Part shown: positions 3,072 to 37,110 of the stretch, in pieces
Layout of the letters: each line of letters opens with the position of its first letter
How positions within the stretch are numbered: the stretch's first letter is position 1
Assembly: GCA_023053575.1 (NCBI GenBank)
Contig: JAKZAP010000001.1
Location: forward strand, 24,818,533 to 24,882,532
Origin: Branchinecta lynchi
Lineage: Eukaryota > Arthropoda > Branchiopoda > Anostraca > Branchinectidae
Direction: 5' to 3'
Length of the DNA stretch: 64,000 bases
Notes under the pieces: model-generated
Told to the model about the DNA's origin: nothing
Seen by the model: only the letters and a program-made list of their open reading frames with translations
Database searches by the model: none
Position numbers and translations under genes: made by a program

Positions 3072-3115
3072 GTACAGGAAGTTGTGGACCTGGTATCCCC
3101 CGAAGAAAAACAAGG
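3072..3115 (+). CDS. ARID1: ARID1/Osa-like gene, small exon A (copy 1)
   Basis: This 44-nt exon is bounded by a strong acceptor (TTTCTTTTCAG) and a strong donor (GTAAGTCG). Read in phase 0 it gives VQEVVDLVSPEEKQ plus two bases, so the following intron is phase 2 and joins exon B (16533) in frame. The core EVVDLV followed by SPEE resembles a SUMO-interacting motif (hydrophobic V-V-D-L-V next to acidic residues); this is inference. The exon has a partner at 26397 in the duplicated unit. There both splice sites, the length modulo 3 and the EVVDLV core are kept, while 13 of 44 bases differ and 3 bases are inserted. Flanking introns are nearly identical between copies. I assign it to the ARID1 gene from strand, phase continuity and position; no transcript supports this. 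Confidence 0.62.
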
Positions 3116-3534
3116 GTAAGTCGTACACTTTCAATTGCTTAGGTGAGTGCTGAGAGAAAAGCACGCGGTTCATACCTGCAGTGAAAAAATATTGAGTTTA
3201 CAAAATTCCAGTTAAATTGTAGAAAGATTCACACGTCCGACATATGTTTTGGGTCCCCACCATTCCGTCTACACGTCAGTTCGCCTGAAAATCCGTTACT
3301 ACGCCCAAATTTTCAGAGAGTTGGCCCATACGCCAGTTAGCTCACGCGTCCGTTGGTCCACAAGTCACGCGTCCGCTGGTACTCAAGTAAGTTCACCCAC
3401 ACTTCATTTGACCCAATGTCAGTTTTCTACCAAAGGGTCAGTTCGTCCACACGTCAGTTTGTCAAATCCTCAAATCCGACAGTTTGTCCACATGCCAGTC
3501 CGTAGGGAAATAATACCCGCATGGAAATAATTCC

Positions 3535-6140
3535 AGTAATTGTATTATGGAACATTTTTCCAATCGTAAACAATTGGAAACAATCGTAAACAATTGTTTT
3601 TTTTACAATTGGAAACAGTTGTTTACGATGGTAAAAAGTTGTTTCTAATTGTTTACCATCGTGAACAACAGTTTCAAACCGTAAACGACTGATTCCGGTC
3701 GGAAAAATGTTACAATAACTTGAATTATTTCCACACGGGTACGTCGTAAATGATTGGAAATGATCCTTTTTTCAGTTGTGTTATTGGACATTTCCGCAAC
3801 TGAAAACAATGCAAAACAGTTCGAAATAATGCAAAAAAAAAGATTTTTTGTATTATTTGCCGATTGAAAACGATTGTAAAAAGTTCAAAATAACTGTGTT
3901 CGCCCAAGTCCTAAAACATTTTTTGTTTTTGTTTTTACAAAATGATTATAGGACATATTTCCCTCTGAAACTAAAATGTAAACAATGCAATAGGCTACAG
4001 CTGTAAACGATAGTATTTTGACAACTAAAAATAGTTATTCCCCAATTGATAGCAACTGCATAGCTTGTAATACATTTTCCAGTTTTGTACCAGCTGGTTT
4101 CATACTTTTATTTTTCAAGCATGACAACGCTACATTTCCAGCTGTAAATTTGCAAGTAGAAATAGTTATTTTCAATTGTTTTCCTACTATTTTTCCCAAC
4201 AGGATTATTTGAAAAATTTCTGAATGTAGATTTCCGTTTTAATGATTGTTTAAATATACTTCTATGCAAAAAACACTCACACTTGTAAACAGTTGTCGAG
4301 TTAATATTGGAAATCATGGTACCCAATTGAAACTTTACAACTAGTTACAGCTATTCTGTTTCCGAAACCAGGTCAATTGTTTCCAATGGAAAACAACTGA
4401 AAACTATGGTAACGGTTGTTTAATTGGACTTGAGAAACAACTGTAAATAGTTGAAGAATTGGAGTCGGAAACAACTGGAAAAAATTCTACCCAATTGTAA
4501 TTTTATAACTGTTTATAGTTGTTTTTGTTTACACAGTTCGAACAAGTGTTTTCGACCAAAAGCAACTGAAACGACTGGAAGCAGCCATCTAAATAAACTT
4601 GAACAAAAACACTTGTAAACAATTGTAAACTTGCGACTGGAAACAACCGGAAAGAATCGTATCCATTTGTAATTTTTCAACTGTTTCGAGTTTTTGAAAC
4701 AGTTTGAAACAATTTGAAAAAGGGTCCTACGAGGACCCTTGGCAAGAAGGGCCGAAATATCGCTGATGAAGAATCGTAGCTGACGTATCCGTTAAAAAAA
4801 TTGTTTGAATACATATTTCCTTCTGAAAAAAAATGTAAACAATGCAATAGGCTACAGTTGTAAGCGATAGTATTTCGATAACTAAAAATAGTTTTTCCCA
4901 AATTGATAGCAACTGCATAGCTTATCATACATTTTCCAGTTTTTACCAGCTGGTTTCATACATTTATTTTTCAGGCATGACAACGCTACATTTCCAGCTG
5001 TAAATTTGCAATTAGAAATAGTTATTTTCAATTGTTTCCCTGCTATTTTTCCCAACAGGATTATTTGAAAAATGTCTGAATGTAGATTTCCGTTTTAATG
5101 ATTGTTTAAATATACTTCTATGCAAAAAACACTCACACTTGTAAACAATTGTAGAGTTAACATTGGAAATCATGGTACCCAATTGAAACTTTACAACTAG
5201 TTACAGCTATTCTGTTTCCGAAACCAGGTCAATTGTTTCCAATGGAAAACAACTGAAAACTATGGTAACAGTTGTTTAATTGGACTTGAGAAACAACTGT
5301 GAATGGTTGAAGAACTGGAGTCGGAAACAACTGGAAAAAATTCTACCCAATTGTAATTTTATAACTGTTTATAGTTATTTTTTTTACACAATTCGAACAA
5401 GTGTTTTAGACCAAAAGCAACTGAAACGATTGGAAGCAGCCATCTAAATAAACATTAGTAAACAATTGTAAACTTGCGACTGGAAACAACCGGAAAGAAT
5501 CGTATCCATTTGTAATTTTTCAACTGTTTCGAGTTTTTGTTCTAAGCCTCTCAAAGCCGCTCAGCGACTTTGAGCCTGAAGAGGACCCTTGCCAAGAAGG
5601 GGGCCGAAATATAGCTCTAATAAAATTCAGTTGACTTCTCCGTTTTGCACCATCAAATATGATTCGCAGTCAGCTTTGGCTGAAGGAATATTTAAGTTTT
5701 TGTTTCATTTCATTTCATTTCATTTATTTCTGACCGCCAAAGCTGGCGAGTTTATGCAATCAGAACAACTGTTTTCGAAAGTCAAAAATGAAAACAATTG
5801 GAAAGATCTATTTTTAAAGATACTTGAAAAACAAAATGTAAACATTTTTGAAATTACAATTAAACCAAACCAATTATTAGATTGCAAACAACTGAAAACG
5901 ATCGGAAATATATGGTTAAAATACAGAAAGAATACAGTTGCAAAGTTTCCTACCAAACGATTGGAAACAGCTGTTTAAACGGATGTGAAAAAACGATTGG
6001 AAACAGTTGTTTCAATGAATAAAAAAACGATTAGAAAATTACAATCGGCTGCAGACAGCTCTTGAAAACTGTTAACAACTGTGTACAGTTGTTAACAATA
6101 GGCAGCAGCTGAAAACGACTGAAAAGGACTTAATTTCTTT
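3535..6140. repeat. CAATTG/AAACAATTG-rich degenerate repeat
   Basis: The stretch is built from dense degenerate copies of GGAAACAACTG, GTAAACAATTG and their complements, so it is full of small inverted repeats around CAATTG. On a larger scale about 3955-4811 and 4812-5530 are an 857-bp tandem duplication (both start near a GTAAACAATGCAATAGG landmark). The first block ends in AGGACCCTTGGCAAGAAGGG and the same phrase closes the second near 5582. Reading frames such as 5589-5978 are open because the sequence is AT-rich and lack domains. Unit 2 carries the homologous region at 26860-29220. Confidence 0.7.
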
Positions 6141-6890
6141 TCATGCGGGTTTGTCTAACGCCAATCCATCTACCGTCAGTTCACAGAATTCGATATATGA
6201 TTTCATACAAACGTCAGTTGAGGCCCAATTATTTTTAAATAAAAATATGATCTTATGAAATGTGCAGATGTAGCACATTTATGTATGTATTGTACACGGA
6301 GAGCCCAAAAGGCCATGGTACAAAAAGATGAGATGCAAAACATATTTAACAAACTTTGTGAAATAGAAAACGAAAAAAACTAACTATCTACTTAAAAAAC
6401 TTTGGGTAAAGAGGGACCTATGTGACTATGTCTCAGTCCCAACTAGAAAAACACTGACATGCTTTGGATAGTACCCAAAGATCTGCTACTGAGCAGACCA
6501 TTTTAACTCTTCTGTCTTTAACCCCTCTTTAAAATACACTTCTTCCCTACACTCTCTTCCACTGTGAGTATTACTTAAATGAAAGCGACGCCAAGACCTC
6601 ACATGTCAACTTTTGGACATCATGGCAATCCAGAATCCTTTTAGTACAGTCAATTTTTAGCGTTTTCTATTTAATTTTTATTTTTCAGCTGAATTTTTTT
6701 ATTTTCTCAAGGCTCAGTGTTTACTTCATGTGAAACACGTTTCTTATGTAGTTTTGTGTGCTGAACTCGAATATCACATCGGATTTAAAGATACAGTCAA
6801 CCAAAAGTGTTTCACATTCATCACTATTCCAGAAATCCATATTTCTATTACATTATCCGTTGCTCGCACTTTCGACCAAATACAGACCCA
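6141..6890. other. Intron sequence without recognisable feature
   Basis: This stretch of about 750 bp is specific to unit 1. It holds AT-rich DNA with a GTACACGGAGAGCCCAAAAG phrase near 6292 that could be the tail of an old retroelement, but I see no reading frame, poly-A tail or target duplication to support that. No exon with matching splice sites is apparent. Confidence 0.35.
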
Positions 6891-6892
6891 AA

Positions 6893-7908
6893 TGGGCTTA
6901 CCGACGAAACGTCCCCATGACAAAATGTCCCCAGGAAACGTCCCCGTGACAAAACGTCCCCGTGACAAACCATCCCCATGACAAAACGTCACCATGACTA
7001 AACGTTCCGGTGGCAAAATGTCCCCAAGCATAGATTTTTAAGTTCGCCTCAATCTTCAGGTGCATGATCGAGGCAAAACAACTTCAGAGTTTTCATTATA
7101 GATGTGTGATTCCTTATAAACAGGGAAGATCGGACATGAGGCGGGTTGCTTCACAAATGTATTGTTTTCAGTTAAAATATATAGTGTAATATGTCTTGCA
7201 ATGAACTCGTACCTGATCATTTTAATGTCGTTTGAAGCAGCGTGCACAATCTGAGAAGCACCAATATGCTCCTCAGAGAAAAGGGAAGACCGCTATAGCT
7301 CAAAGAGAATTAAACAAGGAGAATCCAAAAATTAGCGTAGTGCCGTTAAGGTGGTTAAAAATGACATGGGAAGCGAGGAAGCGAAAGTGGATGGAACGTT
7401 TAGTTAGGTAGAGAGACACAGTAAATCTAGGTTAGAAGGGTTTGATCCTTCAAGAAAATACTTTAAATATCCCTAAATTAAATATCGAACAAAAGCGACA
7501 TCAATGAATTTTATCGAGCGTAAACCAAAAAACAAATAAAAAAATTACATAAGGATAAAATAAAAACTTACAACTGCTAAACCTTTGCGCTTTCTGTAAG
7601 AAATGGCTATAGCCGGGAGCAACACTTTGGTTTGTTTCTTGACTACCGGTTAAATGCTGAAGTAGTCTACCCGTCGTGATTTTAAAATGTTATATTCCAA
7701 GAACGTTTATTGTCCGAACTGATAACGCAATCAGTAATCTCATAGGCCTAGCTATCCCTCAGTCATGGAAACAAAAATCTGTAACCGGGGACTTTCCGCC
7801 ATGGGGACGTTTTGCCAGGGGACGTTTCGATTGGGGATGTTTCGCCACGGGGACGGTTTGTCGTGGGGACGATTTGTCACGGGGACATTTCGTTGGGGAC
7901 GTTACGAT
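6893..7908. mobile_element. Foldback-like element with tandem-repeat inverted ends
   Basis: The left arm (6893-7028) is about seven copies of a 16-18 bp unit ACAAAACGTCCCCRTG. The right arm (about 7783-7908) is about seven copies of the reverse complement, GGGGACGTTTYG-type. The arms are inverted and separated by roughly 750 bp. Inverted ends made of short tandem repeats are the hallmark of Foldback (FB) transposons. The interior has no transposase frame. A fragment resembling the end of Family 3 lies inside near 7614. Target duplication is not obvious. Confidence 0.6.
7614..7700 (+). mobile_element. Family 3 left-end fragment
   Basis: GAGCAACACTTTGGTTTGTTTC followed by CGGTTAAATGCTGAA matches the left end of the Family 3 element at 53213-53290. 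The outer half of the terminal hairpin is replaced by AGCCGG. It is an isolated end within the foldback-like element, so it is either a nested insertion or part of that element's origin. Confidence 0.45.
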
Positions 7909-8000
7909 GACCACAGTAGTCTTAGTATTAAAGACACAACGACATTTCCTATCTAAATGACGCGTTTTTTTAACATGGGATTTCCTATCTAAATGACGCG

Positions 8001-9563
8001 TTTTTATGGCACTTGCCTTCCGGCCAAGTGCCATATACCGATCACTTTTCCGTCGGTCTGTCTGTCGGTCTGTCGGTCTGTCGGTCGGTCGGTCGGTCGG
8101 TCGGTCGGTCAATCAATCAATCAATCAATTTATTTTGCCAATATCATTATAAGATAGTTTGGACGCGTCACAAAGAAGACAATGATACAAAACACGGTCG
8201 GTCGGTCGGTCGGTCGGTCGGTTAGTCCGGTGTTTGCGAGTTAGGGTACTTTCAGATATGCTAGGACGATGAAGCTTGGCAGACATATTACTTGGAAATA
8301 GTCACTTGCCCGATCCGACCATCGTGGAGGGAGGGGGAGGTTGCGGAATCCAGAAAATAGGGACATGCGTAACTTTCGAATGGGTGATCGGATCTTAATG
8401 AAACTTAATACCTGGGAAGACCTCGCTTCTCAGATGTCTCATGTCAAGTCCGGACCGGATCCGATGAATCGAGGGGAGCCGGAAATCGTGTGAAACTCTC
8501 GGAGTGGAGGGATCTGGATGAAACTTGGTGGGAAGAACTAGCACAAGCTCTAGATAAATAACTGACAGAACTGGATCGGATTCGGACACTTTGGGGGGAG
8601 TTGGAGGGGGGTTCCGGAATTCCGGCGATCCGTAGTTGATCTACTTCCAGGTGGGCTAGGACGATAAAACTTGGCAGACATATCAGAGACCCGACCAGAT
8701 TAGCTTGTAAACAGTCACTCGCCCGATCCGACCGTCGTGGGAGAAGGGGGAGACGGCGGAATCCGAAAATTAGTGGCATGCATAACTTTCGAACGGGTTA
8801 TCGGATCTTAATGAAACTTGATATCTTGAAAGAACTCATGTCTCAGATGTCCCATTTCAAGTGCGGACCGAATCCAATGAACTGGGGGGGGGGGTGGAGG
8901 GGAGAACCGGAAATCTTGTGATACGCATAGAGTGGAGCGATCAGGGTCAAATTTGGTGTGACGTACAGGCACAAGTCCTAGGTGCATCAGTGACAGTATT
9001 GGATCGGATTCGGGTACCAAGGGGGGGGGGGCTGTAGGGGGGTGTCCGGAATTCCGGTGATCGTGAGTTAATGTACTCCCAGATTTGATAGGACGATCAA
9101 ACTTTTCTGGAGCATTAGAACCTTGACATCGTCACTTCTCCGATCCACTATTCCTTAAAGAACTCATCTTAACCGCAAAATACAAAAAATACTTTTAAGC
9201 AAAATTTACTTTTTGAAGATTGCCATGAGTACATGAACCTTTTTGCCTCAAGGGTTTTGCTTAGAAATTAATTTTTAGCACCCTTACAGTGCGCATCTTA
9301 ACCGAAAAGTAAAAAAAAACTTTTGACCGTCACTTCCAATCTCTGACCCAGCCTTGCAAGTTTGGCGCATCTGAACCGAATACTTCTATCTGACCCAGCC
9401 TTCCGCGTTTTTGTTTTCCTTCTTGTTTCCTTTTGCTTTCTGTCTCCTATTTTTATATTTAAAGTGAAACCATATGTTGAATTTTCAGCCCCCTTAATTT
9501 TTTCTTGCTGGGGTATTTCTTATACATATGCTTGCAAGTGCCATATGAGCTTACAGCTCTTGT
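8001..9563 (+). mobile_element. Family 2 element, complete, about 1.56 kb
   Basis: The left end is TTTTT then the hairpin ATGGCACTTG...CAAGTGCCAT (8006-8034), followed by a GTCT/GTCG microsatellite. Internal repeats with GATGAAACTTG and CGGACCGGATCCG follow, and the right end is CAAGTGCCATATGAGC...CTCTTG (9535-9562). Flanking DNA is informative: a phrase of about 36 bp, TTAACATGGGATTTCCTATC and onward, is tandemly repeated left of the element and occurs again right of it (TTAACATAGGATTTCCTATC). The insertion therefore sits in a T-run between copies of a pre-existing short tandem repeat. Confidence 0.8.
8041..8222. repeat. (GTCT)/(GTCG) and (AATC) microsatellites
   Basis: GTCTGTCGGTC grades into pure GGTC repeats (to 8108), then AATC repeats (8109-8130), and GGTC repeats resume at about 8197-8222 after a 65-bp interruption. 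This is the GTCY-type tract of the Family 2 element, expanded. Translations rich in TDRPTDRQ are readings through it and are not genes. Confidence 0.85.
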
Positions 9564-10347
9564 TTTTTAACATAGGATTTCCTATCTAAATGACTCGGCT
9601 CCTGATTGGTTGATTTGAAGGCGGGCCCCCCTTTCATTGATCATTTTGACGTCATATTTCGGGGGAATAGAACACCTGTCTATTTCCGAGAACATGGGGG
9701 AAAATAGCGTTGTGTTTTTGAGGGGGGCCATTTGAATGTTGTTGTATTGTTGGAGGGATAGTATTTATTTGTTAGATCTTTCCGTATAGGGCTATGGTTC
9801 CGGATTAATTTTTGGGGAATGGCTCTTTAACTGAAGGATTACTAAATGGCTCATCTTTTGATTGGTTGATTTGAAGGCGGGGACGCCGTTTGTTGTAGCA
9901 TTGTGATCCAGCCGGCTATTCCCGGCGTTTGCTCTTTAAATGCTAGGGGATGCATTTGAATTGGGTGTATCGTTTGAGTATTGATTTGTTGAGTTCCACC
10001 TGTCAGGCGGGGCAAAGTGAATCTGGTAGCCCCTGTATGTGGGCATTATTAAGAGTGATCGCTTGCTTGAAAGATTAATACACCTGTGAGCGTTGCCGAT
10101 TTGCGAATATTTAGGAATAACAAGTTTCTGCAGATATTTTTTGGTACCTTTTTCTAAAGATGGCTAGTTGTGATGAGGTTGTGATGAGACCAGCTTAATA
10201 TTGGACTACTCGCTGAAAGCTTTCTTATTAACGAAAGTAAGTATTGTGAGTACATGATTGGAATTAGTTTATGCTAGGGTTATACGTTAGTTCCACGCTA
10301 AAATCATTTGCCGTTTAATACAAGAGTAATCTGTCTATCATGCGAAT
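9564..10347. repeat. Duplicated intron DNA with a 260-bp internal repeat
   Basis: CTGATTGGTTGATTTGAAGG at about 9601 recurs near 9858, giving an internal tandem repeat of about 260 bp. From 9916 onward the sequence is shared with unit 2 at 29225. Nothing here looks like an exon of the ARID1 gene. Confidence 0.5.
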
Positions 10348-10443
10348 ATGTTGGTCTACGAAAAGTTCTTGAGATGGGGTGGAGATAGCCTGCAGGCACT
10401 ACAAATTAAAACATTAGTAGATACAACAGTATATATAAAACCA
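10348..10443 (+). pseudogene. Relic resembling a carrier-protein (PCP/ACP) core
   Basis: The frame reads LVYEKFLRWGGDSLQALQIK. It resembles the 4'-phosphopantetheine attachment motif of peptidyl/acyl carrier domains (F-x-x-x-GGDSL-x-A), where the serine carries the prosthetic group. Only about 30 codons remain: a stop lies upstream at 10327, and the frame runs into unrelated repeat after 10443. The copy in unit 2 (29647-29767) keeps the same frame but changes the key serine to isoleucine. It may be a captured exon scrap inside mobile DNA. The match is short and could be chance. Confidence 0.3.
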
Positions 10444-10965
10444 GGGGTGGCCCGAAGCAGTCAGGCCAGGGGGGGTGAGACCCCTCATTTCAACGACTCC
10501 CGGATCGCAATATACGACTCGCACGTACCAACAAAAATGACCGGTTGCGACTACGCGGCAATGGCGGACGTTCCCACCAACAAATAATAGAGCCGGTTAA
10601 AAGTAGGTGCAGTGTATCAGATGAAACTATTCGTGTAATCAACATTTTTGTACACATACCTTCATAGCCTCAGCTTTACATTTCAACTTTCGCTAAAGAG
10701 GAAAGCTTTTCAACGGTTATCCCCGGACAAATTAAAGCAAGCGCCGCAGGCGAAATTTGTTAAATCTGCCTTTGTCTAGTAAGATTTTAGCCAGCCTTTA
10801 ATGTGTTTCAGATCTAAAAAGTTCCAAGCCTAATCGCCAAGTAAATGACACACCGTTCCTCTAAATAGAGAATACTATGTAATGCGCCGCAGGCGAAATT
10901 TTGTGAAACGCCGAGGAGCAGACCGTCTTTTTGCGATCCCATTGAAATAATAGCTTTGAAATGCT

Positions 10966-10997
<32 letters not shown>

Positions 10998-11610
10998 ATG
11001 TTGTCAACCAGCCGGTAAAAAATTGCTGAATCGGCGCGAAGCGCCGCGATTTTTCTTAAAAACAGTCGATTTTGGGGGGGGGGAGAAACAGTCGTTTTTT
11101 CTTGAAAACAGTCAGTTTTTCATAAGTCGATTTTTCTTAAAAACGGTCGGTTTCCAGTCGTGTTTTCGTCAAATAGTCGTTTTTTCCGCAAAAAAAAGCC
11201 GGTAAAAATTACCAGCCAGTCGGTAAATATCGAGCTCTTCCCATACTTGATAGTGCTATGATGCGCAGTCAGCAGTGATAAATATGGTTCCCAGTCAGCT
11301 TGGGCTGAAGGAATATTTCTGCCCTCCCCCCCCCCCAAACCAAAAATTTTGGATAGTAACGCCTCTGATGGCATAGAGGCCAAAAATTTACCTACCGACT
11401 AGAATGAGCTATTCTAGCGTCTGCAGAACCCCTCCTGTCCTGGGAAACGAATTTCGGGTGTATATTAAAATCTTCCTTGTCCTTTTCAAGCGTTGTAACC
11501 ACCTCAACCTCTCTTTGTAATCGACATTTTTCTATCTGTTCTGGGCACACTTGTTTCGCGGGTTTCCTGTCATTTGATTGCTGATGGCTTTTCCATTCTG
11601 TTCAAAAATT
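10444..11610. other. Repeat-derived intron with long poly-C tract
   Basis: No gene is supported. Two copies of GCGCCGCAGGCGAAATTT (about 10740 and 10881) belong to a dispersed motif also seen in degenerate form near 11030, 56620, 61110 and 62325. A 31-nt poly-C run occupies 10967-10997. A tandem AGTCGATTTTTCTTAAAAAC-type repeat fills 11060-11185. Segment 10815-10950 is a diverged copy of 52400-52520 (shared CTTTTTGCGATCCCA). Confidence 0.5.
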
Positions 11611-11614
11611 CTAT

Positions 11615-12047
11615 CTTTCTTTTTTCACTTGTAGCCAAAGTTTGACCAACAATCAATGCACATAACCTTGTCTCTCGCTTTTGGTCTAGAAGGTATATCA
11701 ATGTTATCCAGTCAGAGTGCACTTTAACAACTAACCTATTTTGCCTATTGTAATTTTGACAGGCTAAAATCTGAAAGACCTGTGTGAGGCAGATCCAATT
11801 CACACGGGAGTACAACAGGTAGCCGCATTGCTGCCCCCATGAATCATGTCTCGGACCTATCGGGGATACAGAACCTAGTTTAAACGACCCGACCTGTCTT
11901 AAGGGACGGGCTTCCGACTGAAGCTGTGCAGAGACAAAATTAACAATTTTTTTTAAACGACTCGGATTGTTTTTATTAAAATGAATGCCCGGGACCTCGG
12001 CGAGGCCAAAATAAACGACTGATACGACTTAGCAAAAGGCAGGGGGG
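11615..12047. repeat. Dispersed repeat, second copy at 40955-41395
   Basis: Landmarks CACATAACCTTGTCTCTC, TATATCAATGTT, GAATCATGTC and AATGAATGCCCG occur in the same order here and in unit 2 at 40955-41395. The two copies are not at equivalent positions of the duplication, so this is an independently dispersed repeat of about 430 bp. Confidence 0.6.
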
Positions 12048-13199
12048 GGGGATCTGATACCATTTCTCTACCGCAAACCCAAGTGCAAAAAAACGAATGA
12101 TAAACTCAGCTGAAATCGCGTACACAAATGGAACCAAATTGTTCTTACCATCGAATACACCGGAAACAAATAACAGGTACACCAACTAGCAAAAGCTGCA
12201 AGGCCCTCATTACCGAAGATGATTATGAGCTAACAGTCGACTGTTGCTTAAAAGTCCCCTACATGGCTCATAACTGCTATCGCCTATTTTTGGTTTCAAT
12301 GTACCTTACTACTGAAGTTGTCAACCCCTTTGAAATTTTCAAACTGGTGTATCTCATGAAGGAATTTTTGTACCAAAAAATGGATGACATATACTTTGAT
12401 CAGCTCATCAGTGGCTATCGATTGCCGTCGAAAAAAAAATTCTACCTGTCTTAGTTCAAAAGTTGACTTTTTTGCCGTAGGCCAACTTTCTAACGTCACG
12501 ACTTAGAAAGGAGCAAAGGATAAGCTCTAGTTTCTTTAGCAATGAGAGAACTTTTAAAGTTTAAGGGGCACATCTGATACCGTTACTCTACCGCAAACCC
12601 AAGTGCAAAAAAAAAAAATTATAAACTCAGCTGGAACCGTCACAGACATGGACAGAAACAATAGATGGCAGCACTTTCGGACCCGTGGGAAAAAGCCACT
12701 TTTTTGTCTCTGTAGATTTTTCTATTTATCACTCAAAGAAGATATGTTGGCTGTGGGGCCGGGTAACTGCCGCATATATTTAACACTTATAGATTTTAGT
12801 CCATCTTCAATTTGAAACTGGTGCCTGCCTGCTAGCGTGCTAGAACGGAGCTTTCCACTCGAAAGCAGAAACATGGTTTGATGAAACGAAAGGTTCGCTA
12901 CACAACTTGATATGGTCCTCTCCGACATAGGCTATACAACTCCACTTCACTTCGCAAACCGTATGCTCTGGCTCGATGACAAGCAAAAACCATCCTTATT
13001 GGCCCCAGGCAAGAGTTCTACGGAGCTTTCCAAAATGTAATGTCATATTCATCAATCCGGCCTAAGGTCCACGCTTTCCGTAAAAACCGCACAGGTTAGA
13101 CCCTTCCCAGTTACCAGGAATAAAATGAAATCGGAGTCATGGAAAAAAAAAAAAAAAAAAAAAAAACGAGGACAAAACCAAAGTGTTGCTCTCGCAACA
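12048..13199. mobile_element. Family 3 element, right part
   Basis: This is highly similar to 54329-54406 and 55312-56384. Shared landmarks include TGTTCTTACCATCG, the poly-A run (13143-13166 here, 56324-56349 there) and the end GTGTTGCTCTCGCAACAC, a 7-bp stem with a 4-base loop at 13181-13198. The sequence just past it (AACTAGG-AAAGCACC) continues in unit 2 at 31352 without the element, so the right insertion boundary is about 13199. The 108-codon frame at 12128-12454 is part of a repeat shared with 55207-55635 and shows no domain. Confidence 0.7.
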
Positions 13200-13320
13200 C
13201 AACTAGGTAAAGCACCCTTTCTAGAGTCAACAGAGACATTTGAGTGTTTTCTGAAATCTTAAGAGGCCCCCAACTAAGAAAGCACCAACTCACTTGTGAT
13301 TTGCGGAATGATTATTTGTT

Positions 13321-14712
13321 TTTGGGATCCCAAAACGCAAGTGGAGGGATACCTATGACATCGCAAAAGTTGTCCGTCTGTCCGTCTGTCCGTCTGTCCG
13401 TCCGTCCGTCTGTCCGTCCGTCTCTAAGTACGATAACTCTCGAAGGGAATGAGATATTTTGATGAAACTTGGTGTGAGGATTCGTTGGGTCGTCGGACCA
13501 GTCAAGTTCGCAGATGGGCTTTGGATTCAAATTAAGGGGCAAACAAAATATTTTGAAACAGCTAATGTGATAGTCGATTGTGGGCTAAGAAGACATGCTG
13601 ATCACGGTGGTGAAAATCATTCTGTCATCGGACAAGTAGTTCAGCCGGAATCCGGCCAAAACCGGAAAGTTTGTAAAAGTTTTATTTGAAGTTGATTAGA
13701 TGTTCGATTTAGGGGTAGGAAGACATGCTGAAGACGATGGTGAAGACAATTTTCTCGACTGACAAGTATTTCGCCCGGAATCCGGCCCAAACCGGAAAGT
13801 TTGTTGAAAGTAAAAGTTTTATTTGAAACTGATTAGAGGTTCAATTTAGGGGTAGGAAGACATGCTGAAGACGATGGTTAAAACTATTTTCTCGACGGAC
13901 AAGTATTTCGCTCGGAATCCGGCCCAAACCGGAAAGTTTGTTGAAAGTAAAAGTTTTATTTGAAGTTGATTAGATGTTCGATTTAGCGGTAGGAAGACAT
14001 GCTGAAGACGATGGTGAAAACTATTTTCTCGACGGTCAAGTATTTCGACCGGAATCCGGCCCAAACCGGAAAGTTTGTCAAAATTAAAAGTTTTATTTGG
14101 AATTGATTAGATGTTCGATTTAGGGCAAGAAGACATGCTGAACACTTATGTGAAAACAATTTTCTACCCGGACATGTAGTTCGCCCGGAATCCGGCCAAA
14201 ACCGAAAAACTGTTGGAAGTCAAAGTTTTATATCTAGTTGATTAGGTAAGCGATTTAGGGGTAAGAAGAGATTCTGAGTCCCTGTATGACAATCATATTT
14301 TACCCAGACATATAGTTCGACCGGAATCCGGCTGGAATTGGAAAATTTGATATAAGCTAAATTTCTATTTGAAGTTGATTAGATGTTCATTACTGCGAAA
14401 AGAAGATACCCTGCGTCTTTGAGCTTTCTTTTTTCGCCGGACAAGTAGTTCTGGAGTTCGGCAGGAACCGGGAAATTGGCAGAAGATGCAGGAAGTTTTC
14501 GTTAAAACAGATATGACTTATAGGGGTAAACACACATGCTGAAACCATATCTGAACTTGGTTTTCTCAGGTGATTAGCTATTTGGCCTTAATCTGTTTCT
14601 GAGTTTTAATTATAAAAATGTTCAAGGAGTCTGGCGATGACTGGATAAAAGACCCAGTTGTCTGGATCAGATATTGGATTTTTGGGATCCCATCGAAACC
14701 TTTGGTCTTGTT
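13321..14712 (+). mobile_element. Family 1 element, complete, about 1.39 kb
   Basis: It starts TTTTTGGGATCCCAAAACG (perfect palindrome TTTTGGGATCCCAAAA), then has a (GTCY)n tract at 13373-13423. After that come tandem copies of a 137-bp unit with GAAGACATGCTGAA, GGACAAGTA and CCGGAATCCGGCC, and it ends GGGATCCCATCGAAACC then CTTGTT at 14712. It is non-coding, and the 137-bp period cannot hold one frame. Structure and (GTCY)n core match Helentron-associated HINE/DINE-1/pearl-like elements. In unit 2 the same site is occupied by a Family 2 element (31466-33132). Confidence 0.85.
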
Positions 14713-22644: not shown

Positions 22645-22714
22645 TTATCACAGATAATCGGGTCTGCTATATAGATCTTTGGTCTTTGCAGACCCCCCCC
22701 CCCACCGATTTTTT

Positions 22715-26859: not shown

Positions 26860-29220
26860 AGTCATTGTATTATAGAACATTTTTCCAATCGTAAACAATT
26901 GGAAACAATCGTAAACAATTGTTTTTTTACAATTGGAAACAGTTGTTTACGATGGTAAAAAGTTGTTTCTAATTGTTTACCGTTGTAAACAACTGTTTCC
27001 GACCGTAAACGACTGATTCCGATCGTAAAAAAACAATTGTTTACGATTGGAAAAATGTTACAATGACTTGACTTATTTCCACACGTGTAAGTCGTAAATC
27101 ATTGGAAATGATCCTTTTTTCAGTTGTGTTAGTGGACATTTCCGCAACTGAAAACAATGCAAAACAGTTCGAAATAATGGAAAAAAAATGTTTTTTGCAT
27201 TATTTTCCTATTGAAAACGATTGTAAACAGTTCATAATAACTGTGCTTTCTCAACTAAGTCCTAAAACACCATTGTTTTTGTTTTTACAAAATGATTATG
27301 GGACATATTTCCCTCTGAAAACAAATGTAAACAATGCAATAGGCTACAGTTGTAAGCGATAGTATTTCGACAACTAAACTATAAAACAAACTATAATTTT
27401 TTTTTACAACTATAAAAATTCCCAAATTGATAGCAACTGCATAGCTTATAATACATTTTCCAGTTTTTTAACAGCTGGGTTCAAACATTTATTTTTCAAG
27501 CATGACAGCGCTACATTTCCAGCCGTAAATTTGCAATTCGAAATAGTTATTTTCAATTGTTTCCCTACTATTTTTCCTAACAGGATTATTTGAAAAATTT
27601 CTGGATGTAGATTTCCGTTTTAATGATTGTTTAAATATATTTCTATGCAAAACAAGAGCTACGAGCTCATACGGCACTTGTTACGAGTAGGCACGGCTCG
27701 GTTATGTCAATGATATATCTAGTGTTTGCTAGGTGTCTTCCCACCAAGTTTCATCTCGATCCCTCCACTCGTAGCGTTTCCCAAGATTTCCGGTTGCCCC
27801 CTCCAGCTCCCCCCAAAAGTCACCAGATCCGGTCCGGACTTTAAGTGGATCGTCTGAGGCATGAGGTCGTTCCAAATATCAAGTTTCATCGAGATCCGGT
27901 CACCCGTTCAAAAGTTATAAATACCTCAAGATTCCGGATTCCCCCTCCCTCCACTCCCCCGACAGTGCCCGAATCGGCTCGGTCATGTCAATGATGTATC
28001 TAGTGTTTGGTAGGTGTCTTCCCACCAAGTTTCATCTCGATCCCTCAACTCATAGCGTTTCCCAAGATTTCCGGTTGCCCCCTTCAGCTCCCCCCAAAAG
28101 TCACCGGATCCGGTCCTGATTCTAAGTGGGTCGTCTGAGGCATGAGGTCGTTCCAAATATCAAGTTTCATCGAGATCCGATCACCCGTTCAAAAGTTATA
28201 AATACCCCATGATTCCGGATTCCCCCTCCCTCCAATCCCCCCACGGTGCTTGGATCGGGGAAGTGACTATTTCCAACTTAATCATTTGGGGTCCCTGATA
28301 CGCCTGCCAATTTTTATCGTCCTAGCTTATGTGGAAGTGCCCGAACTAGCAAAACCTGGACAGACCGACGGACGGAGAGAAATTGCGATCGCTATATGGC
28401 ACTTGGCCGAAGGGCAAGTGCCATAAAAAAACTCACACTTGTAAACAGTTGTAGAGTTAACATTGGAAATCATGGTACCCAATTGAAACTTTACAACTAG
28501 TTACAGCTATTCTGTTTCCGAAACGAGGTCAATTGTTTCCAATGGAAAACAACTGAAAACTATGGTAACAGTTGATTAATTGGACTTGAGAAACAACTGG
28601 AAATAGTTGAAGAATTGGAGTCGGAAACAACTGAAAAAAATTCTACCCAATTGTAATTTTATATCTGTTTATAGTTGTTTTTGTTTACACAATTCGAACA
28701 AGTGTTTTCGACCAAAAGCAACTGAAACGATTGGAAGCAGCCATCTAAATAAACTTGAACAAAAACACTAGTAAACAATTGTAAACTTGCGACTGGAAAC
28801 AACCGGAAAGAATCGTATCCATTTGTAATTTTTCAACTGTTTCGAGTTTTTGAAACAGTTTGAAACAATTTGGAAAAGGGTCCTGACGTGGACCCTTGGC
28901 AAGAAGGGCCTAAATATCGCTGATGAAGAATCGTAGCTGACGTATCCGTTGAAAACATTGTTTGAGTACATATTTCCCTCTGAAAACAAATGTATAGGTT
29001 ACAGTTGTAAGCGATAGTATTTCGACAACTAGAAATAGTTATTCCCAAATTGATAGCAGCTGCGAAGCTTATAATACATTTTCCAGTTTTTTACCAGCTG
29101 GTTTCATACATTTATTTTTCAAGCATGACAACGCTACATTTCCAGATGTAAATTTGCAATTAAAAATAGTTATTTTCAATTGTTTCCCTACTATTTTTCC
29201 CAACAGGATTATTTGAAAAA
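26860..29220. repeat. CAATTG-rich repeat, unit 2 copy
   Basis: This is the counterpart of 3535-5090 and shares its order of landmarks, including the TGCAATAGGCTACAG block twice (about 27336 and, shortened, 28990). A Family 2 element (27653-28428) interrupts it. At about 29221 the sequence jumps to what is 9916 in unit 1, so 4.8 kb is absent relative to unit 1 (deletion here or insertion there). Confidence 0.65.
27653..28428 (-). mobile_element. Family 2 element, reverse orientation, about 0.78 kb
   Basis: It reads CAAGAGCTACGAGCTC at the left and GGCACTTGGCCGAAGGGCAAGTGCC at the right, with two internal repeats of about 285 bp and a short (GTCY) remnant. Unit 1 at 4262-4280 is the empty site (TCTATGCAAAAAACACTC); the element splits the A-run, equivalent to a T|T target on the other strand. 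Confidence 0.85.
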
Positions 29221-29224
29221 TTTC

Positions 29225-29948
29225 CCGGCGTTTGCTCATTAAAAGCTAGGGGGTGCATTTGAAATGGGTGTGTCGTTTGAGTATTGATTTGTTGAGTTCC
29301 ACCTGTCAGGCGGGGCAAAGTGAATCTGGTAGCCCCTGTATGTGGGCATTATTAAGAGTGATCGCTTGCTTGAAAGATTAATACACCTGCGAGCGTTGCC
29401 GATTTGCGAATATTTAGGAATAACAAGTTTCTGCAGATATTTTTTGGTACCTTTTTCTAAAGATGGTTAGTTGTGATGAGGTTGTGATGAGACCAGCATA
29501 ATATTGGACTACTCCCTGAAAGCTTTTTTATTAACGAAAGTAAGTTTTGTGAGTACATGATTGGAATTAGTTTATGCTAGGGTTATACGTTAGTTCCATG
29601 CTAAAACCATTTGCCATTTAATACAAGAATAATCTGTCGTTCATGCGAATACATTGGTCTACGAAAAGTTCTTGAGATGGGGTGGAGATATCCTGCAGGC
29701 ACTACAAATTAAAACATTAGTAGATACAACAGTATATATAAAACTGGATCTATTTGCTGTAAATTAAGTTGAATACATAAAATGCCAAGATATCACAGAA
29801 CAAAGGCTTTTGTGATGCTAAGTATTGTATTACTGCTTTTGAAAGGTGAATTAGTAAGAAACTGTGAACCAATGAACCAATAAAAATAAGCACACTTAGA
29901 CAGAGACAACAAATATAGTAACAGTGTAGGGTTCTTTAGATGGGTTGT
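29225..29948. pseudogene. Carrier-protein-like relic, copy 2 (serine lost), and flanks
   Basis: The frame at 29652-29767 reads TLVYEKFLRWGGDILQALQI then KTLVDTTVYIKLDLFAVN and stops. It is colinear with 10348-10443 in unit 1, but the GGDSL motif is GGDIL, which would abolish prosthetic-group attachment if this ever encoded a carrier domain. Flanking sequence to 29225 is shared with unit 1; 29768-29948 is unit 2-specific and featureless. Confidence 0.28.
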
Positions 29949-31110
29949 TTTTGGGATCCCAAAACGTAAGTGGAGGGATACCTATGACATCGCAAAAGTT
30001 GTCCGTCCGTCCGTCTGTCCGTCCGTCTGTAAGCATGATAACTCTCGAAGGGAATGAGATATTTTGATGAAACTTGGTGTGAGTATTTGTTGGGTCGTCG
30101 GACCAGTCAAGTTCGTAGATGGGCTTTGTAGCCCTACATTTAGGGGTCGGGGAGGGGGTTCAAATTAAGGGTCAAACAAAATGTTTTGAAACAGCTAATG
30201 TGATAGTCGATTATGAGGTAAGAAGACATGCTGAGCACGATGGTGAACACTATTTTGTCATCGGACGAGTAGTTCGCCCGGAATCCGGCCAAAACCGGAA
30301 AGTTTGTTAAAAGTAAAAGTTTTATTTGAAGTTGATTAGATGTTCGAATTAGGGGTAGAAAGACATGCTGAAGACGATGGTGAAAACCATTTTCTCGACG
30401 GACAAGTAGTTCGCCCGGAATCCGGCCGAAACCGGAAAGTTTGTTCAAATTAGAAGTTTTATTTCGAGTTGATTTGATGTTCAATTTAGGGCAAGAAGAC
30501 TTGTTAAACACTTATGTGAAAACACTTTTTCTATCCGGACATGTAGTTCGCCCGGAATCCGGCGAAAACCGGAAAGTTGGTTAAAAGTAAAAGTTTAATC
30601 TGAAGTGGATTAAATCTTTGATTTATGTGTAAGAAGACATGCCGAACACGATGGTGAAAATCATTTTCTCGCTGGACAACTAGTTCGCCCGGAATCCGGC
30701 CAAAACCGGAAAATTTGTTAAAAGCAAAAGTTCGATTAGATGACAGATTAAGTGGTAAGAGGAGAGGCTGAGTCGGTTTATGACAATGGTTTTTTACCCG
30801 GACATATAATTATTCTGGAATCCGGTTGTAACCGGATTTTTTTGAAGTCAAACTTTTATTCAAAGTTGATTAGATGTTCTTTATAGGGATAAGGAGATAC
30901 GCTGGTTTTGTTTCTGTATTTTTTTTTGCTGGACTAGTAGGAAATTGGCAGGAAGTCTCGGTCGGTATCGTCAAAATAGATATGGCTTATCTGTACTTGG
31001 TTTTCTCTGATGATTAGCCTGTCCAAGACTGGATCTGGCGAAGACAAGACTCGATTGTCTGAATCAAATATTAGATTTTTGGGATCCCATCGACACCTTT
31101 GGTCTTGTTC
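29949..31110 (+). mobile_element. Family 1 element, about 1.16 kb
   Basis: Left end TTTTTGGGATCCCAAAACG, (GTCY)n at 29998-30030, 137-bp-type repeats that become more divergent toward the right, then GGGATCCCATCGACACC and CTTGTT. It sits in unit 2-specific DNA, so no empty site is available here. Confidence 0.85.
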
Positions 31111-31465
31111 TGAAGGAGCTTAAACACACCTGCAATTTCAGATAGCACGCCCAATAACAAGTAATGTAAACTATATTGGATATGAAAGTAGGCCTACATT
31201 CAGTTGTTTCTTCTTTTGAGTGACTAAGAGTGAAAATTGGGGCTACATCTTTTCAAAGGTGCATGTTTGCCTTTTTTCGAAAGCACAAGATTGACTAAGA
31301 AAAATGCATCGTCTAGTTTGTTCATCCTTGTAAAACAAATCGAACTAGGAAAAGCACCCTTTCTAGAGTCAACAGAGACATTTGAGTTTTTTCTGAAATC
31401 TTAAGAGGCTCCCAACTAAGAAAGCACCAACTCACTTGTGATTTGCGGAATGTTTATTTGTTTTT

Positions 31466-33132
31466 TATGGCACTTGAGCTTACTCAAGTGTCATATAGCG
31501 ATTGTAATTTCTGTCGGTCTGTCGGTCCCGGTTTTGCTAGTTCGGGCACTTCCAGATAAGCTAGGACGATGAAACTTGGCAGGCATATCAGGGACCGGAC
31601 CAGCTCAACTTAAAATTAATCATTTCTTCAATCCGACTTTCCCCGGATCCGGGAGTCCGGAAACTATAAAGCAAAAGTGGAGCGAAAAGTAGCAAAAAAA
31701 GGGCTGCCCGAATGCGGGAGCGAATCAGGAACCTCTGAGTTCTAAGGCCAACGCTCTACCAACTGAGCCACGAGTCCATGTGTGAGAGAGCGAATGCGGG
31801 AATACAAACAAAGTGGATAATCTAAACAAATTACATTGTTAGGATAATGGAACTTGTCAGAAATATTGGATGTATTAGGGAGCGTATGCGGGAGTATATA
31901 TTGTTAAAAGATTGACGACCTGATTAACCTGGACATAGTCAAGAAACATAAATAATAGTTTGGGCACTTCCACGCAAGCTAGGACGATGAAACTTCGCAG
32001 GCATATCAGGGACCCGACCAGACTAAGTTGGAAATAGTCACTTGCCCGATCCGACCATCGTGGGGGAGGGGGCGGAATCCGGAAAATAGGGACATTCATC
32101 ACTTTCGAACGGGTGATCGGATCTTAATGAAACTTGATATCTGGAAAGATCTCGTGTCTCAGATGTCTCATTTCGAGTCCGGACCGGATCCGATGAATCT
32201 TGGGGGTGAGTCTTGAGGGGAGTGGAGGGACGGGGAATCCGGAAAAATTTGGAAAAATTAAATATTTTCAGCTTACGAACGGGTCGTCGGATCTTAACGA
32301 AACTTGATATATGGAAGGACCTCATGTCTCAGACGCCGGTGACATTGGGGGGAGTTGGAAGGGGAAACCGGAAATCTTGAAAAACGCTCAGAGTGGAGAG
32401 ATCCGGATGAAACTTGGTAGAAAGAACAAGCACAAGTCCTAGACGCCTGACTGACATAACCGGAACGGATCCGCTCACTTTGCGGGAGTTGAGGGGGGGG
32501 AGTCCTAATTTCTAGTGATCCCGCGAGTTCGATGCTTCCTGATGTGCTAGGACAATGAAAATTGGCAAGCATGCCAAGGACCCGACCAGATTAAATAGGA
32601 AATAGTCACTTCCCCGATCTGACCATCTGGGGGGGGGGGTGGAGGGACGGGGAAGCCAAAATTGAGGTATTTTTAACTTGCGAACGGTTGGTCGGATCTT
32701 GATGAAAGTTGATATTTAGCATGACCTCGTGTCTCAGACGTCCCACTTTAAATCCGGACCGGATCCGATGTCACTGGGGGGGGGGGGGGGAGCTGGTGGA
32801 GGGAACCAGAAATCTTGACAAACGCTTAGAGTGCAGCGATCGGGATGGAATTTATTCGGCCACGGTAGGTGGAGATAGAGTGAGTGCCGGAAATCGTGTA
32901 GCACGTCTAGGGATCAAACAAATGGATTTATTGGGATGAAAGTTTGAACAGTCATGTGCATTTGCTGCAGACAATCGAGACGATGCCGGAACTGCTCAGA
33001 AATGAGTGAAACTAAATATCCTATTTCTATTTCCGAATCGCATTTTTGGATGGCGGGTGTATTTTGTGAGGTTCTCATCTACTTTCTTGTACAGCCTACT
33101 CGTACAAGTGCCATATGAGCTCGTAGCTCTTG
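31466..33132 (+). mobile_element. Family 2 element at the site holding Family 1 in unit 1
   Basis: The left hairpin is ATGGCACTTGAGC...CAAGTGTCAT and the right end is GTAGCTCTTG at 33132. Left flank GATTTGCGGAATG-TTATTTG and right flank CTTAAGT-GGAAAGGTTGCG are the same as those around the Family 1 element at 13321-14712 in unit 1. It contains a tRNA-like segment (31701-31777) and its surrounding about 300 bp, which is not Family 2 sequence and looks like a nested insertion. Confidence 0.8.
31701..31777 (-). tRNA. tRNA-like relic (pseudogene or SINE head)
   Basis: On the minus strand, GGACTCGTGGCTCAGTTGGT contains a good A-box (TGGCTCAGTTGG) and a perfect D-arm (GCTC/GAGC). A seven-base loop CTTAGAA would place TAG as anticodon, and a degraded B-box GGTTCCTGATTCG follows. 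The acceptor stem does not close (the 3' side is CGGGCAGCCC, not CGAGTCC) and the anticodon stem is poor. It is thus not a functional tRNA; a tRNA-derived SINE or decayed copy fits better. The phrase GCGAATGCGGGA recurs on both sides. Confidence 0.45.
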
Positions 33133-33332
33133 TCTTAAGTTGGAAAGGTTGCGTTAGTAGATAGCGACTAAGGTGAACCAATCTGAATAGGCAGAAATAC
33201 ATTTTTTTGTTGCCCCTCGGTCTTTGCACCCTTTCTAGAGTCAACAAAGGCATTTGAGTGTTTTCTGAGATCTTAAGAGGTCACCAACTAAGAAAGCACC
33301 AACTCACTTGTGATTTTCGGAATCATTTTTTG

Positions 33333-33893
33333 TATTTGGGATCCCAAAACGTAAGTGGAGGGATACCTATGACATCATAAAAGTTGTCTGTCTGTCCGTC
33401 CGTCCATCCGTCTGTCCGTCTGTACGCACTATAACTCTCGAAGGGAATGAGATATTTTGATGAAACTTGGTGTGAGGATTGTTTGGGTGAAGAGTAAGGT
33501 CAAGTTCATAGATGGGCTCTGTAGCCCTACATTTAGGTGTGGGGGAGGGGTTTAATTTAAGGGACAAATTAAATATTTTTAAACATATAATGTGATAGTC
33601 GATTGTGGGGTAAGAAGACATACTGAACACGATGGTGAAATCCATTTTGACAAGTAGTTTGCCAGGAATCCGGCCAAAACCGGAAAGTTTGTTAAAAGTA
33701 AAAGTTATATTTGAAGTTGATTAGATGTTGGATTTAGGGATAAGAAGACATGCTGAAAATGATGGTGACACACATTTGTTCGCCGGACAAGTAGTTAGCC
33801 CGGAATCCGGCCAAAACCGGAAAGTCTTTTAAAAGTAAAAGTTCTATTTGAAGTTGATTAGATGTTCGATTTAGGGATAAGAAGACATGCTGA
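33333..33893 (+). mobile_element. Family 1 element, truncated (unit 2 copy of 14911-15472)
   Basis: Same left end, (GTCY)n tract, repeat content and truncation point (GACATGCTGATATCC) as in unit 1, so it was inherited through the duplication and not inserted twice. Confidence 0.8.
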
Positions 33894-34255
33894 TATCCTA
33901 CTTTCAACTCACGTTCCTCTTTCTCTCTCTGCTTCTCAAAGCAAGTAAAAATAAATCCTTTGTAATTCAGTAAGTACCTCACAAGACTCAGAACGTGATT
34001 AAATTTCCATCGGGCCAAAACCTAGAACATGGCCTCGTAGAAGTCGTGGTACCAACGAATATCGAACCACGCTAAATATCTTTGGAACGCTGACGACCAA
34101 GATGGCGTCGGCGTTCCAAACCGTATTATCTGTCCACGTAGATTGGATCTGACGAAAAAGGAAAGGGGCATCAACCCGCAACAGTTTCCTTGTCTATAAA
34201 ACCGTTTAATGATTTCTGTTTTGATTTATACGGAGTCAAACGATTTTGCCATAAT

Positions 34256-34565
34256 GAGCGTGTTCCATCCTACTTACCGTAGTTACTGCGCATGACGTCA
34301 CAAATTCCGGCTTTTTGCCGTCAATGCTGGAAAGATTTTTCTATTTTCCAGAAGAATATCATACCACGGGCGAATCAGACAAATCACGTTTCAGAGATCC
34401 GTAGTTACTCCGCTTACTACGCTCCCGAGCGTGGTAAGCAAATAGTTACTATTCTATTAGTTACTATTTCGAGAAGGTTGGAACGGTCAGCGTAATAACT
34501 TTTGGTGAGGTTGGAACGGAAATAGTAACTAAAAGTTACTATTGATAAGAGGGTGGAACACGCTC
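34256..34565. mobile_element. MITE, full length 310 bp
   Basis: Terminal inverted repeats GAGCGTGTTCCATCCT and AGGGTGGAACACGCTC flank a non-coding interior with GTAGTTACT/AGTTACTAT repeats. AAT precedes the left end and follows the right end, a possible 3-bp target duplication. It is the reference copy for 15844-15941 and 57766-58041. Confidence 0.8.
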
Positions 34566-34733
34566 AATATAAACGCGAATTTCTTTTATGGTGATGAAAG
34601 TCAAACACTTCCATTTGACCGTATCTTATACCTGATGTGTATTCGAGTCCAGAACGTAAAATCACACCAGTAACATGTTCCCCATGAAGTAAAATGTCAG
34701 CTGGAAACCTAAAAACAAAATAGAAAACATTAA

Positions 34734-36652
34734 CAAGAGCTACGAGCTCATATGGCACTTGTTACGAGTAAGCACGGCTCGGTTTGTCAATGATATATCT
34801 AGTGTTTGCTAGGTGTCTTCCCACCAAGTTTCATCTCGATCCCTCATCTCATAGCGTTTTCCAATATTTCCGGTTCTCCCCTCCAGCTCCCCCCAAAAGT
34901 CACTGGATCCGGTCCGGATTTTAAGTGGGTCGTCTGAGGCATGAGGTCTTTCCAAATATCAAGTTTCATCGAGATCCGGTCACCCGTTCAAAAGTTATAA
35001 ATACCTCAAGATTCCGGATTCCCCCTCCCTCCACTCCCCCGACAGTGCCCGAATCGGCTCGGTCATGTCAATGATGTATCTAGTGTTTGCTAGGTGTCTT
35101 CCCACCAAGTTTCATCTCGACCCCTCCACTCATAGCATTTCCCAAGATTTCCGGTTGCCTCCTCCAGCTCCCCCCCAAAAGTCACCGGATCCAGTCCGGA
35201 TTTTAAGTGGGTCGTCTGAGGCATGAGGTCTTCCAAATATCAAGTTCCATCGAGATCCGATCACCCGTTCAAAAGTTATAAATACCTCAAGATTCCGGAT
35301 TCCCCCTCCCTCCACTCCCCCCCACAGTGCCCGAATCGGCTCGGTTATGTCAATGACGTATCTAGTGTTTGCTAGGTGTCTTCCCACCAAGTTTCATCAC
35401 GATCCCTCCGCTCATAGCGTTTCCCAAGATTTCCGGTTGACCCCTGCAGCTCCCCCCCAAAAGTCACCGGATCCGGTCCAGATTATAAGTGGGTCGTCTA
35501 AGGTATGAGGTCTTTCCAAATATCAAGTTCCATCTAGATCCGATCACCCGTTCAAAAGTTATAAATACCTCAAGATTCCGGATTCCCCCTCCCTCCACTC
35601 CCCCCACAGTACCCGAATCGGCTCGGTTATGTCAATGATGTTTCTAGTATTTGCTAGGTGTCTTCCCATCAAGTTTCATCTCGATCCCTCCACTCATAGC
35701 GTTTCCCAAGATTTCCGGTTGCCCCCTCCAGCTCTCCCAAAAAGTCACCGGATCCGGTCCGGATTTTAAGTGGGTCGTCTGAGGCATGAGCTCTTCCAAA
35801 TATCAAGTTCCATCGAGATCCGATCACCCGTTCAAAAGTTATAAATACCTCAAGATTCCGGATTCCCCCTCCCTCCACTCCCCCCCCACAGTGCCCGAAT
35901 CGGCTCGGTTATGTCAATGACGTATCTAGTGTTTGCTAGGTGTCTTCCCACCAAGTTTCATCTTGATCCCTCCACTCATAACGTTTCCCAAGATTTCCGG
36001 TTGCCCCCTCCAGCTCCCCCCCAAAAGTCACCGGATCCGGTCCGGATTTTAAGTAGGTCGTCTGAGGCATGAGGTCTTTCCAAATATCAAGTTCCAACGA
36101 GATCCGATCACCCGTTCAAAAGTTATAAATACCTCAAGATTCCGGATTCCCCCTCCCTCCACTCCCCCCACAGTGCCTGAATCGGCTCGGTTATGTCAAT
36201 GATGTATCTAGTGTTTGCTAGGTGTCTTCCCACCAAGTTTCATCTCGATCCCTCCACTCATAGCGTTTCCCAAGATTTCCGGTTGCCCCCTCCAGCTGCC
36301 CCCAAAAGTCACCGGATCCGGTCCGGATTTTAAGTGGGTCGTCTGAGGCATGAGGTCGTTCCAAATATCAAGTTTCATCGAGATCCGATCACCCGTTCAA
36401 AAGTTAAAAATACCTCAAGATTCAGGATTCCCCCTCCCTCCACTCCCCCCACGGTGCTCGGATCGGGGAAGTGACTATTTCCAACTTAATCATTTGGGGT
36501 CCCTGATACGCCTGCCAAGTTTTATCGTTCTAGCTTATGTGGAAGTGCCCGAACTAGCAAAACCTGGACAGACCGACAGACCGACAGACCGACGGACGGA
36601 CAGAAATTGCGATCGCTATATGGCACTTGGCCGAAGGGCAAGTGCCATAAAA
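34734..36652 (-). mobile_element. Family 2 element with six 282-bp tandem repeats
   Basis: The landmark CGGCTCGG recurs at 34774, 35054, 35337, 35619, 35901 and 36183, giving spacings of 280, 283, 282, 282 and 282. The array is followed by a short tract complementary to (GTCY)n and the hairpin GGCACTTGGCCGAAGGGCAAGTGCC. The empty site is in unit 1 at about 16103-16117 (AACATTAAAAACACG). The near-identical repeats suggest recent array expansion. Translation frames with TDRPTDRRTDR are artefacts of the microsatellite. Confidence 0.88.
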
Positions 36653-37073
36653 ACACGAATTTTGTACCTCTCTGGGTTTCTTAACTTGTACATTTTTTTG
36701 TCTCTACAATATGGTGTAAAAATCATTTCTTTTGCAGTTTGTTTGCGGTCGAGTCATATCTGCCGCGATTGGCTGTACTGGCTGAACTAGTATTAGGCTA
36801 TAGGCAAGATAGGTCCTTTAAGATTATCAGATTAAGGGATAAGTCAATCCTCCGCTTTGACTAGCTTGAGATTTTGGAGCTCAGACAGCACTGAGCTAGT
36901 TACACCATTACCGGTGTCATAACGTCTTACGAAAGAGGGAACGAAGTTCTTGTAGCACTCTTTTTTAGTATTATAGGGGGGTCAAAGTGAGTCTTCTGAT
37001 TTGGCTTGGGTCATCTGCTTTTAGCATTTCCTTCGTGTTCGCGTGAAATAAATATCTGCCCTTTATATTTCAG

Positions 37074-37110
37074 CTTCGGAAGAGTGCCAAATCTCACCGA
37101 AGAAATGGAG
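37074..37110 (+). CDS. ARID1: ARID1/Osa-like gene, small exon B' (copy 2)
   Basis: This 37-nt microexon has acceptor TTTATATTTCAG and donor GAG|GTTAGT. The first base completes the exon A' codon to glycine, then FGRVPNLTEEME, ending in phase 0, which matches the ARID exon at 57328. Against B, FGR and the final E hold and nearly everything between is replaced. Intron flanks are about 94-98% identical over the bases I compared. Because A'+B' is 84 nt, inclusion or skipping does not disturb the frame. The next supported exon lies 20 kb downstream. Confidence 0.6.

Follow-up and report, generated by a model that had tools for sequence, protein, structure and literature searches.

Predicted micro-exons more diverged than their introns in a tandem duplication of Branchinecta lynchi, upstream of ARID1/Osa-like exons

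Introduction

Exons that outpace their introns have precedents among secreted effectors and venoms, and are usually read there as a sign of positive selection. In the SSSGP families of the Hessian fly, tandem copies combine conserved introns and other non-coding parts with a super-diversified coding part; dN/dS is above 1 in 16 of the 16 pairs of Table 2 of that study, which proposes positive selection together with concerted homogenisation and discusses sequence heterogeneity as affecting conversion tracts (PMC2955719). In the phenomenon named ASSET, found in snake three-finger toxins, short exon segments have been switched to dissimilar sequence between introns that are >85% similar (PMC2711939, PMC2474615), by a mechanism that the sections cited state is not understood (PMC2711939). 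Aphid bicycle genes have many micro-exons, the internal ones almost all in phase 2, and very fast coding divergence (PMC9168663).

Here we describe a locus in Branchinecta lynchi, within a stretch of 64,000 nt (the window), where an earlier note had pointed out two pairs of very short exons, A/A' and B/B', that differ between tandem copies far more than the introns touching them. Excess change in duplicated exons over their non-coding surroundings is the reverse of the usual pattern. Insofar as the sections cited describe these systems, SSSGP genes resemble A/B in having tandem copies with introns more conserved than coding sequence, but there whole mature-protein regions of secreted proteins are concerned, while here it is two micro-exons with a dN/dS of about 0.6 over 26 codons. 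The likeness to ASSET is that a short exon segment has changed between similar introns, with a block in B changed at 14 of 16 positions, but the replacements lean conservative. ASSET, however, was described in venom multigene families, with all but one of its segment changes away from intron-exon boundaries, whereas here the cassette is apparently intragenic and the change in A reaches the acceptor. Micro-exons and fast coding divergence also recall bicycle genes, although here there are two micro-exons and their phases do not follow the bicycle pattern, A being read in frame 0 (phase 0) and B in frame 1. Mutually exclusive exons of the Dscam type are tandem, frame-compatible copies, as A/B and A'/B' are, but in the present case a two-exon cassette is repeated within 20 kb units. 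The locus thus differs from its known relatives in apparent constraint and in its neighbouring gene.

Results

Duplication units and repeats

Comparing the window with itself by BLAST, we found colinear blocks that make up a tandem duplication of ~20 kb, whose units each differ by many insertions that the other lacks (Table 1). Both exon pairs lie inside this duplicated DNA, just as the earlier note had claimed. One repeat is present at each unit start (1141-1453 and 22642-22908) and again after unit 2 (42021-42341), and the 2.3 kb separating the units has only repeat matches of 78-81%, within 41800-46500. Over 16 blocks, exons included, 371 of 9,132 aligned sites differ between the units (4.1%). 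With the exons set apart, divergence is 5.65% in the left part (1153-4271) and 2.88% in the right part (14706-20355; P 1.7e-9), a gap that agrees with uneven homogenisation or exchange but also with uneven mutation.

Table 1. Predicted exons and duplication units, in positions of the window
Feature	Position	Strand	Remarks
Tandem duplication unit 1	about 1141..20355	.	colinear blocks with unit 2, self-BLAST
Exon A (predicted)	3072..3115	+	44 nt, VQEVVDLVSPEEKQ + GG; AG/GT bounds
Exon B (predicted)	16533..16569	+	37 nt, C + LGRIHSTVQEVE
Tandem duplication unit 2	about 22642..42039	.	carries insertions without counterpart in unit 1
Exon A' (predicted)	26397..26443	+	47 nt, ILNEVVDLVTPQGKT + GG
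Exon B' (predicted)	37074..37110	+	37 nt, C + FGRVPNLTEEME
Partial third unit start	42021..44033	.	repeat, then satellite, then match to 1446-1855
ARID exon a (predicted)	57328..57525	+	198 nt, phase 0-0; Pfam ARID; best PDB match ARID1B 2cxy
ARID exon b (predicted)	58326..58515	+	190 nt; donor rank 3/3,593; acceptor score 1.4

The window is rich in other repeats. Arrays of a 137-bp satellite are found at 13574-14388, 23188-23618, 30221-30732, 42612-43296, 47571-48388 and, in opposite orientation, 50020-50719; the satellite pattern had 0 matches in viral contigs and 0 in genome contigs, a set that may omit the window's own genome. A tandem repeat of 281/282 bp (27694-28249 and 34775-36466) occurs as two copies at one site and as six at the other, with 93% matches. 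A near-adjacent duplicate further downstream (59410-59864 and 59904-60358) has 99.56% identity over 455 nt and is much less diverged than the 20 kb units.

Candidate micro-exons

Splice sites were scored with a generic frequency-based model and ranked over all 3,658 AG and 3,593 GT sites of the window. Exon A has the top-ranked acceptor and the donor ranked 9, and for A' the two sites come 5th and 11th; B and B' are identical in rank, at 65 for the acceptor and 72 for the donor. Open splice-bounded candidates of 20-80 nt that are at least as good as B make up 108 of the 9,183 nt of aligned unit 1, and 81 of these 108 nt are A and B themselves, the remaining 27 running from the end of A to its alternative donor at 3142. 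The thresholds were fixed at the level of B post hoc, after B had been seen, so as evidence for exon candidates these figures are strong for A and fair for B.

In both copies, A is open in two frames (0 and 2) and B in three. Frame 0 of A leaves two bases that are completed by frame 1 of B, which itself closes in phase 0. Provided that they are adjacent, A and B form a frame-neutral cassette of 81 nt (84 nt for A' and B'), with phase 0 in and out. That length modulo 3 and phase are kept between the copies, also claimed before, holds in that the lengths agree and the phases fit A in frame 0 followed by B in frame 1. A further strongly scored exon candidate (34352-34433, sum 12.4) is present in a segment of unit 2 that is missing from unit 1, and 34256-34453 is an inverted match to 57853-58041.

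Exon and intron divergence

The hand counts in the earlier note proved right: 13 substitutions in 44 positions plus 3 nt separate A (44 nt) from A' (47 nt), and B and B' (37 nt each), aligned without gaps, differ at 16 of 37. So did the low divergence of the touching introns, since the flanks differ at 58 of 1076 sites around A and 30 of 1013 around B, that is 3-5% against 30% in exon A and 43% in exon B. Even the nearest 40-column bins have few changes (1/40 to the left and 2/40 to the right of A, 1/40 on each side of B), and the excess of exon over flank has a Fisher P of 1e-6 for A and 8e-14 for B with sites treated as independent. By substitution counts, the introns between the tandem copies are therefore more similar than the coding parts, a result that is partly alignment-dependent for B.

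The two exons differ in the shape of their divergence. It had been claimed that the excess runs from splice site to splice site, and this is the case for A, where the maximum-scoring mismatch segment (3072-3113) is essentially the whole exon. It is not the case for B, where low divergence extends about 10 nt into the exon from both sides and the maximum-scoring segment is central (16543-16564). The changed positions in B are 16534, 16543, 16545, 16547-16558 and 16564, so that 14 of the 16 changes fall in 16543-16558, 12 of them consecutive. As the change in B is a central block, it may stem from one or a few events, far fewer than 16.

How exceptional B appears depends on the alignment. A standard aligner opens two 4-nt gaps in B, leaving 6 substitutions in 33 sites. 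We considered compensating indels in B and set them aside, as opening the gaps brought no significant gain over chance (P 0.09 and 0.44). When substitutions and gap openings are counted together per 40 columns, A comes first with 11, an intronic spot at 3888 second with 9, and B third with 8. With substitutions alone in the standard alignment, at least 8 per 40 sites is reached only by windows at A, and there are zero gap-free windows of 16 columns with at least 7 mismatches. In a gap-averse alignment, such 16-column windows occur only in A and B, and mismatch runs longer than 3 are confined to them. A is thus an outlier in both counts, and B is an outlier if its change is read ungapped. In the intronic spot (3888-3930) the units are set apart by scattered substitutions together with short gaps. 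The other windows of high divergence turned out to be gaps (27 nt at 18858, 24 nt at 3698, 10 nt at 4809 and 12 nt at 5450).

Codon changes and selection

Over the 26 codons of A and B together, the NG86 method gives pS 0.47 and pN 0.34 (dS 0.74, dN 0.46), and for B alone dN is 0.69 and dS 0.63. The ratio of about 0.6 for the two exons together, from 26 codons of which many are multi-hit, is not above 1. The estimated pS of 0.47 exceeds the intron rate roughly tenfold. The differences fall on the three codon positions at 13, 6 and 10 of 26, and 14 of the 26 codons carry replacements, against a background divergence of 4%. If silent sites had changed at the intron rate, omega would have to be about ten or more.

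We simulated selection with single-base steps, in 2,000 runs for each omega. The observed synonymous count has P 0.73 at omega 0.6 and 0.35 at omega 1, falling to 0.009 at omega 3, 0.002 at omega 5 and a printed value of 0.000 at omega 10, 15 and 30 (2,000 runs each). The 10 changes at third positions reach P 0.011-0.002 for omega 10-30, and the two clean silent codon changes taken alone, P 0.12-0.05 over the same range, are not decisive. Purely omega-driven diversifying selection by single bases is disfavoured, as runs at omega of at least 10 did not reproduce the synonymous count. The simulation was limited to single-base steps and for this reason leaves room for block mutation.

Judged by BLOSUM scores in the frames that agree in phase, the replacements in A and B are more conservative than three nulls predict (P 0.033, 0.006 and 0.0008, the third also reflecting clustering). 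Taken singly, A has P 0.11, 0.18 and 0.02 and B has P 0.11, 0.005 and 0.02; in this test frames 0 and 1 of B perform about equally (P 0.044 and 0.066, respectively), and if B changed through indels its codon alignment is wrong. Transitions make up 13 of 29 exon changes and 168 of 355 intron changes, which is no difference, and transition bias was set aside.

Downstream ARID exons

ARID1/Osa-like exons are located about 20 kb downstream. The predicted ARID piece matches Pfam ARID at 3.7e-20 and, in the PDB, ARID1B (2cxy) at 9.6e-25, which identifies an ARID1-type domain; fly Osa is of the same kind (ARID1/Osa, BAF250, a SWI/SNF subunit). A homologue search with this piece gave 3 candidates, none at E<=0.001, with a length filter that excludes full-length ARID1. 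At 63453-63647 the plus strand has an open stretch, noticed by eye, with many S, P and A residues, which is a possible further exon downstream of the ARID exons.

ARID exon a can be read in phase 0 from its very first base, and in phase the A/B cassette fits a position upstream of the ARID exons, of whose gene it may be part. The earlier label of a chromatin-remodeller gene stands for the ARID exons, by Pfam and PDB matches, while A and B are tied to it only by strand, distance and phase. The locus resembles ARID1/Osa (BAF250) in its downstream ARID domain with ARID1B as the best PDB match, and differs in A/B peptides that match no Pfam family. When the A/B and ARID peptides were joined, the PDB matches fell in the ARID part, which begins at residue 28: of 26 matches, 25 had their start at residue 34 or beyond and the remaining one at 26.

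ORFs of at least 48 aa, of which there are 273 on the plus and 320 on the minus strand, were searched against Pfam after excluding those mainly in repeats. On the plus strand, the search covered 136 of 148 low-repeat ORFs and gave ARID and a weak WAP. A second set, with 114 stretches of the minus strand (3 besides 111 of the 142 listed) and 2 of the plus strand, yielded nothing but a DnaG zinc ribbon under its cut-off. An Rfam search had zero hits at gathering scores.

Discussion

The reading we prefer, more plausible than each rival but at less than even odds, is that a micro-exon cassette was copied in the ~20 kb duplication and that its exons are older than the DNA around them, through either exon replacement or intron homogenisation. 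A and B resemble older coding sequence under mild constraint, set in younger DNA, and from the sequence we infer a deeper history for the exons than for their surroundings. A ~20 kb tandem duplication, whose units start with copies of one repeat, would have duplicated the two-micro-exon cassette. By one route, exon segments would later have been replaced from an older related cassette, with conversion confined to the exon because the old introns shared no homology. By the other, selection would have maintained the difference between two old cassettes, and recombination would have homogenised their introns as far as the heterologous exon. Either way one protein, possibly the ARID1/Osa-like one downstream, would have two segments of ~27 residues, used as alternatives or in tandem, and a frame-neutral cassette such as this putative one permits mutually exclusive use of its copies. 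Conversion has the difficulty that it must stop near four exon edges. A search of the window for a donor of A or B, with k-mers of 16, 20 and 24 nt on both strands and with the exons and 30 nt around them set aside, was negative; real exon k-mers matched no better than those of shuffled exons (15 shuffles each). Among the three options of the earlier note, simple diversifying selection is the weakest, given the synonymous change and the simulations, while either replacement or homogenisation may apply.

Strong diversifying selection after a recent duplication, with complex or clustered mutations playing a part (compare venom and gall-midge effector genes), is nevertheless a serious if doubtful alternative. 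It would account for 14 of 26 replaced codons against a 4% background and for change that is block-like in B (16 nt) and clustered in A together with a 3-nt indel, and there are precedents in the sections cited (PMC2955719, PMC2711939). It sits poorly with synonymous sites that are equally raised, which omega of at least 10 with single-base steps fails to reproduce, and with replacements that lean conservative. We think it unlikely that chance or local hypermutation, as one complex mutation in B plus a mutation cluster in A, happened to fall between splice-like sites. The change in B is almost one contiguous block, its splice ranks of 65 and 72 are good rather than outstanding, the candidate thresholds were placed at its level post hoc, and the intronic spot at 3888 has 9 events against 8 in B when gap openings count. 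A, however, surpasses every other 40-site spot of the unit in density, whichever of the two counts is used, and no acceptor in the window outranks its own; both exons preserve length modulo 3 and open frames.

An assembly origin seems still less probable: the units would be haplotypes misplaced in tandem, with A/A' and B/B' as old alleles under balancing selection whose introns have recombined. Divergence of 4% with unshared insertions is within the range of heterozygosity in some invertebrates and could be just that. Against this, the partial third unit start after unit 2 fits a real tandem array better, and so does the 2.3 kb between the units, with only its 78-81% repeat matches in 41800-46500.

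At its most specific, the older-exon reading would describe a conserved chromatin-remodeller gene with two old alternative micro-exon cassettes ahead of its ARID exons, in which coding bases are exempt from exchange or its sole target while ~20 kb of intron around them evolves in concert; in this full form we consider it improbable. Should the exons indeed be spliced into a nuclear regulator and the excess extend to silent sites, selection on amino acids alone would be insufficient to explain it. In that event the locus would offer a small and testable example of exon-limited replacement or of heterology-limited intron homogenisation.
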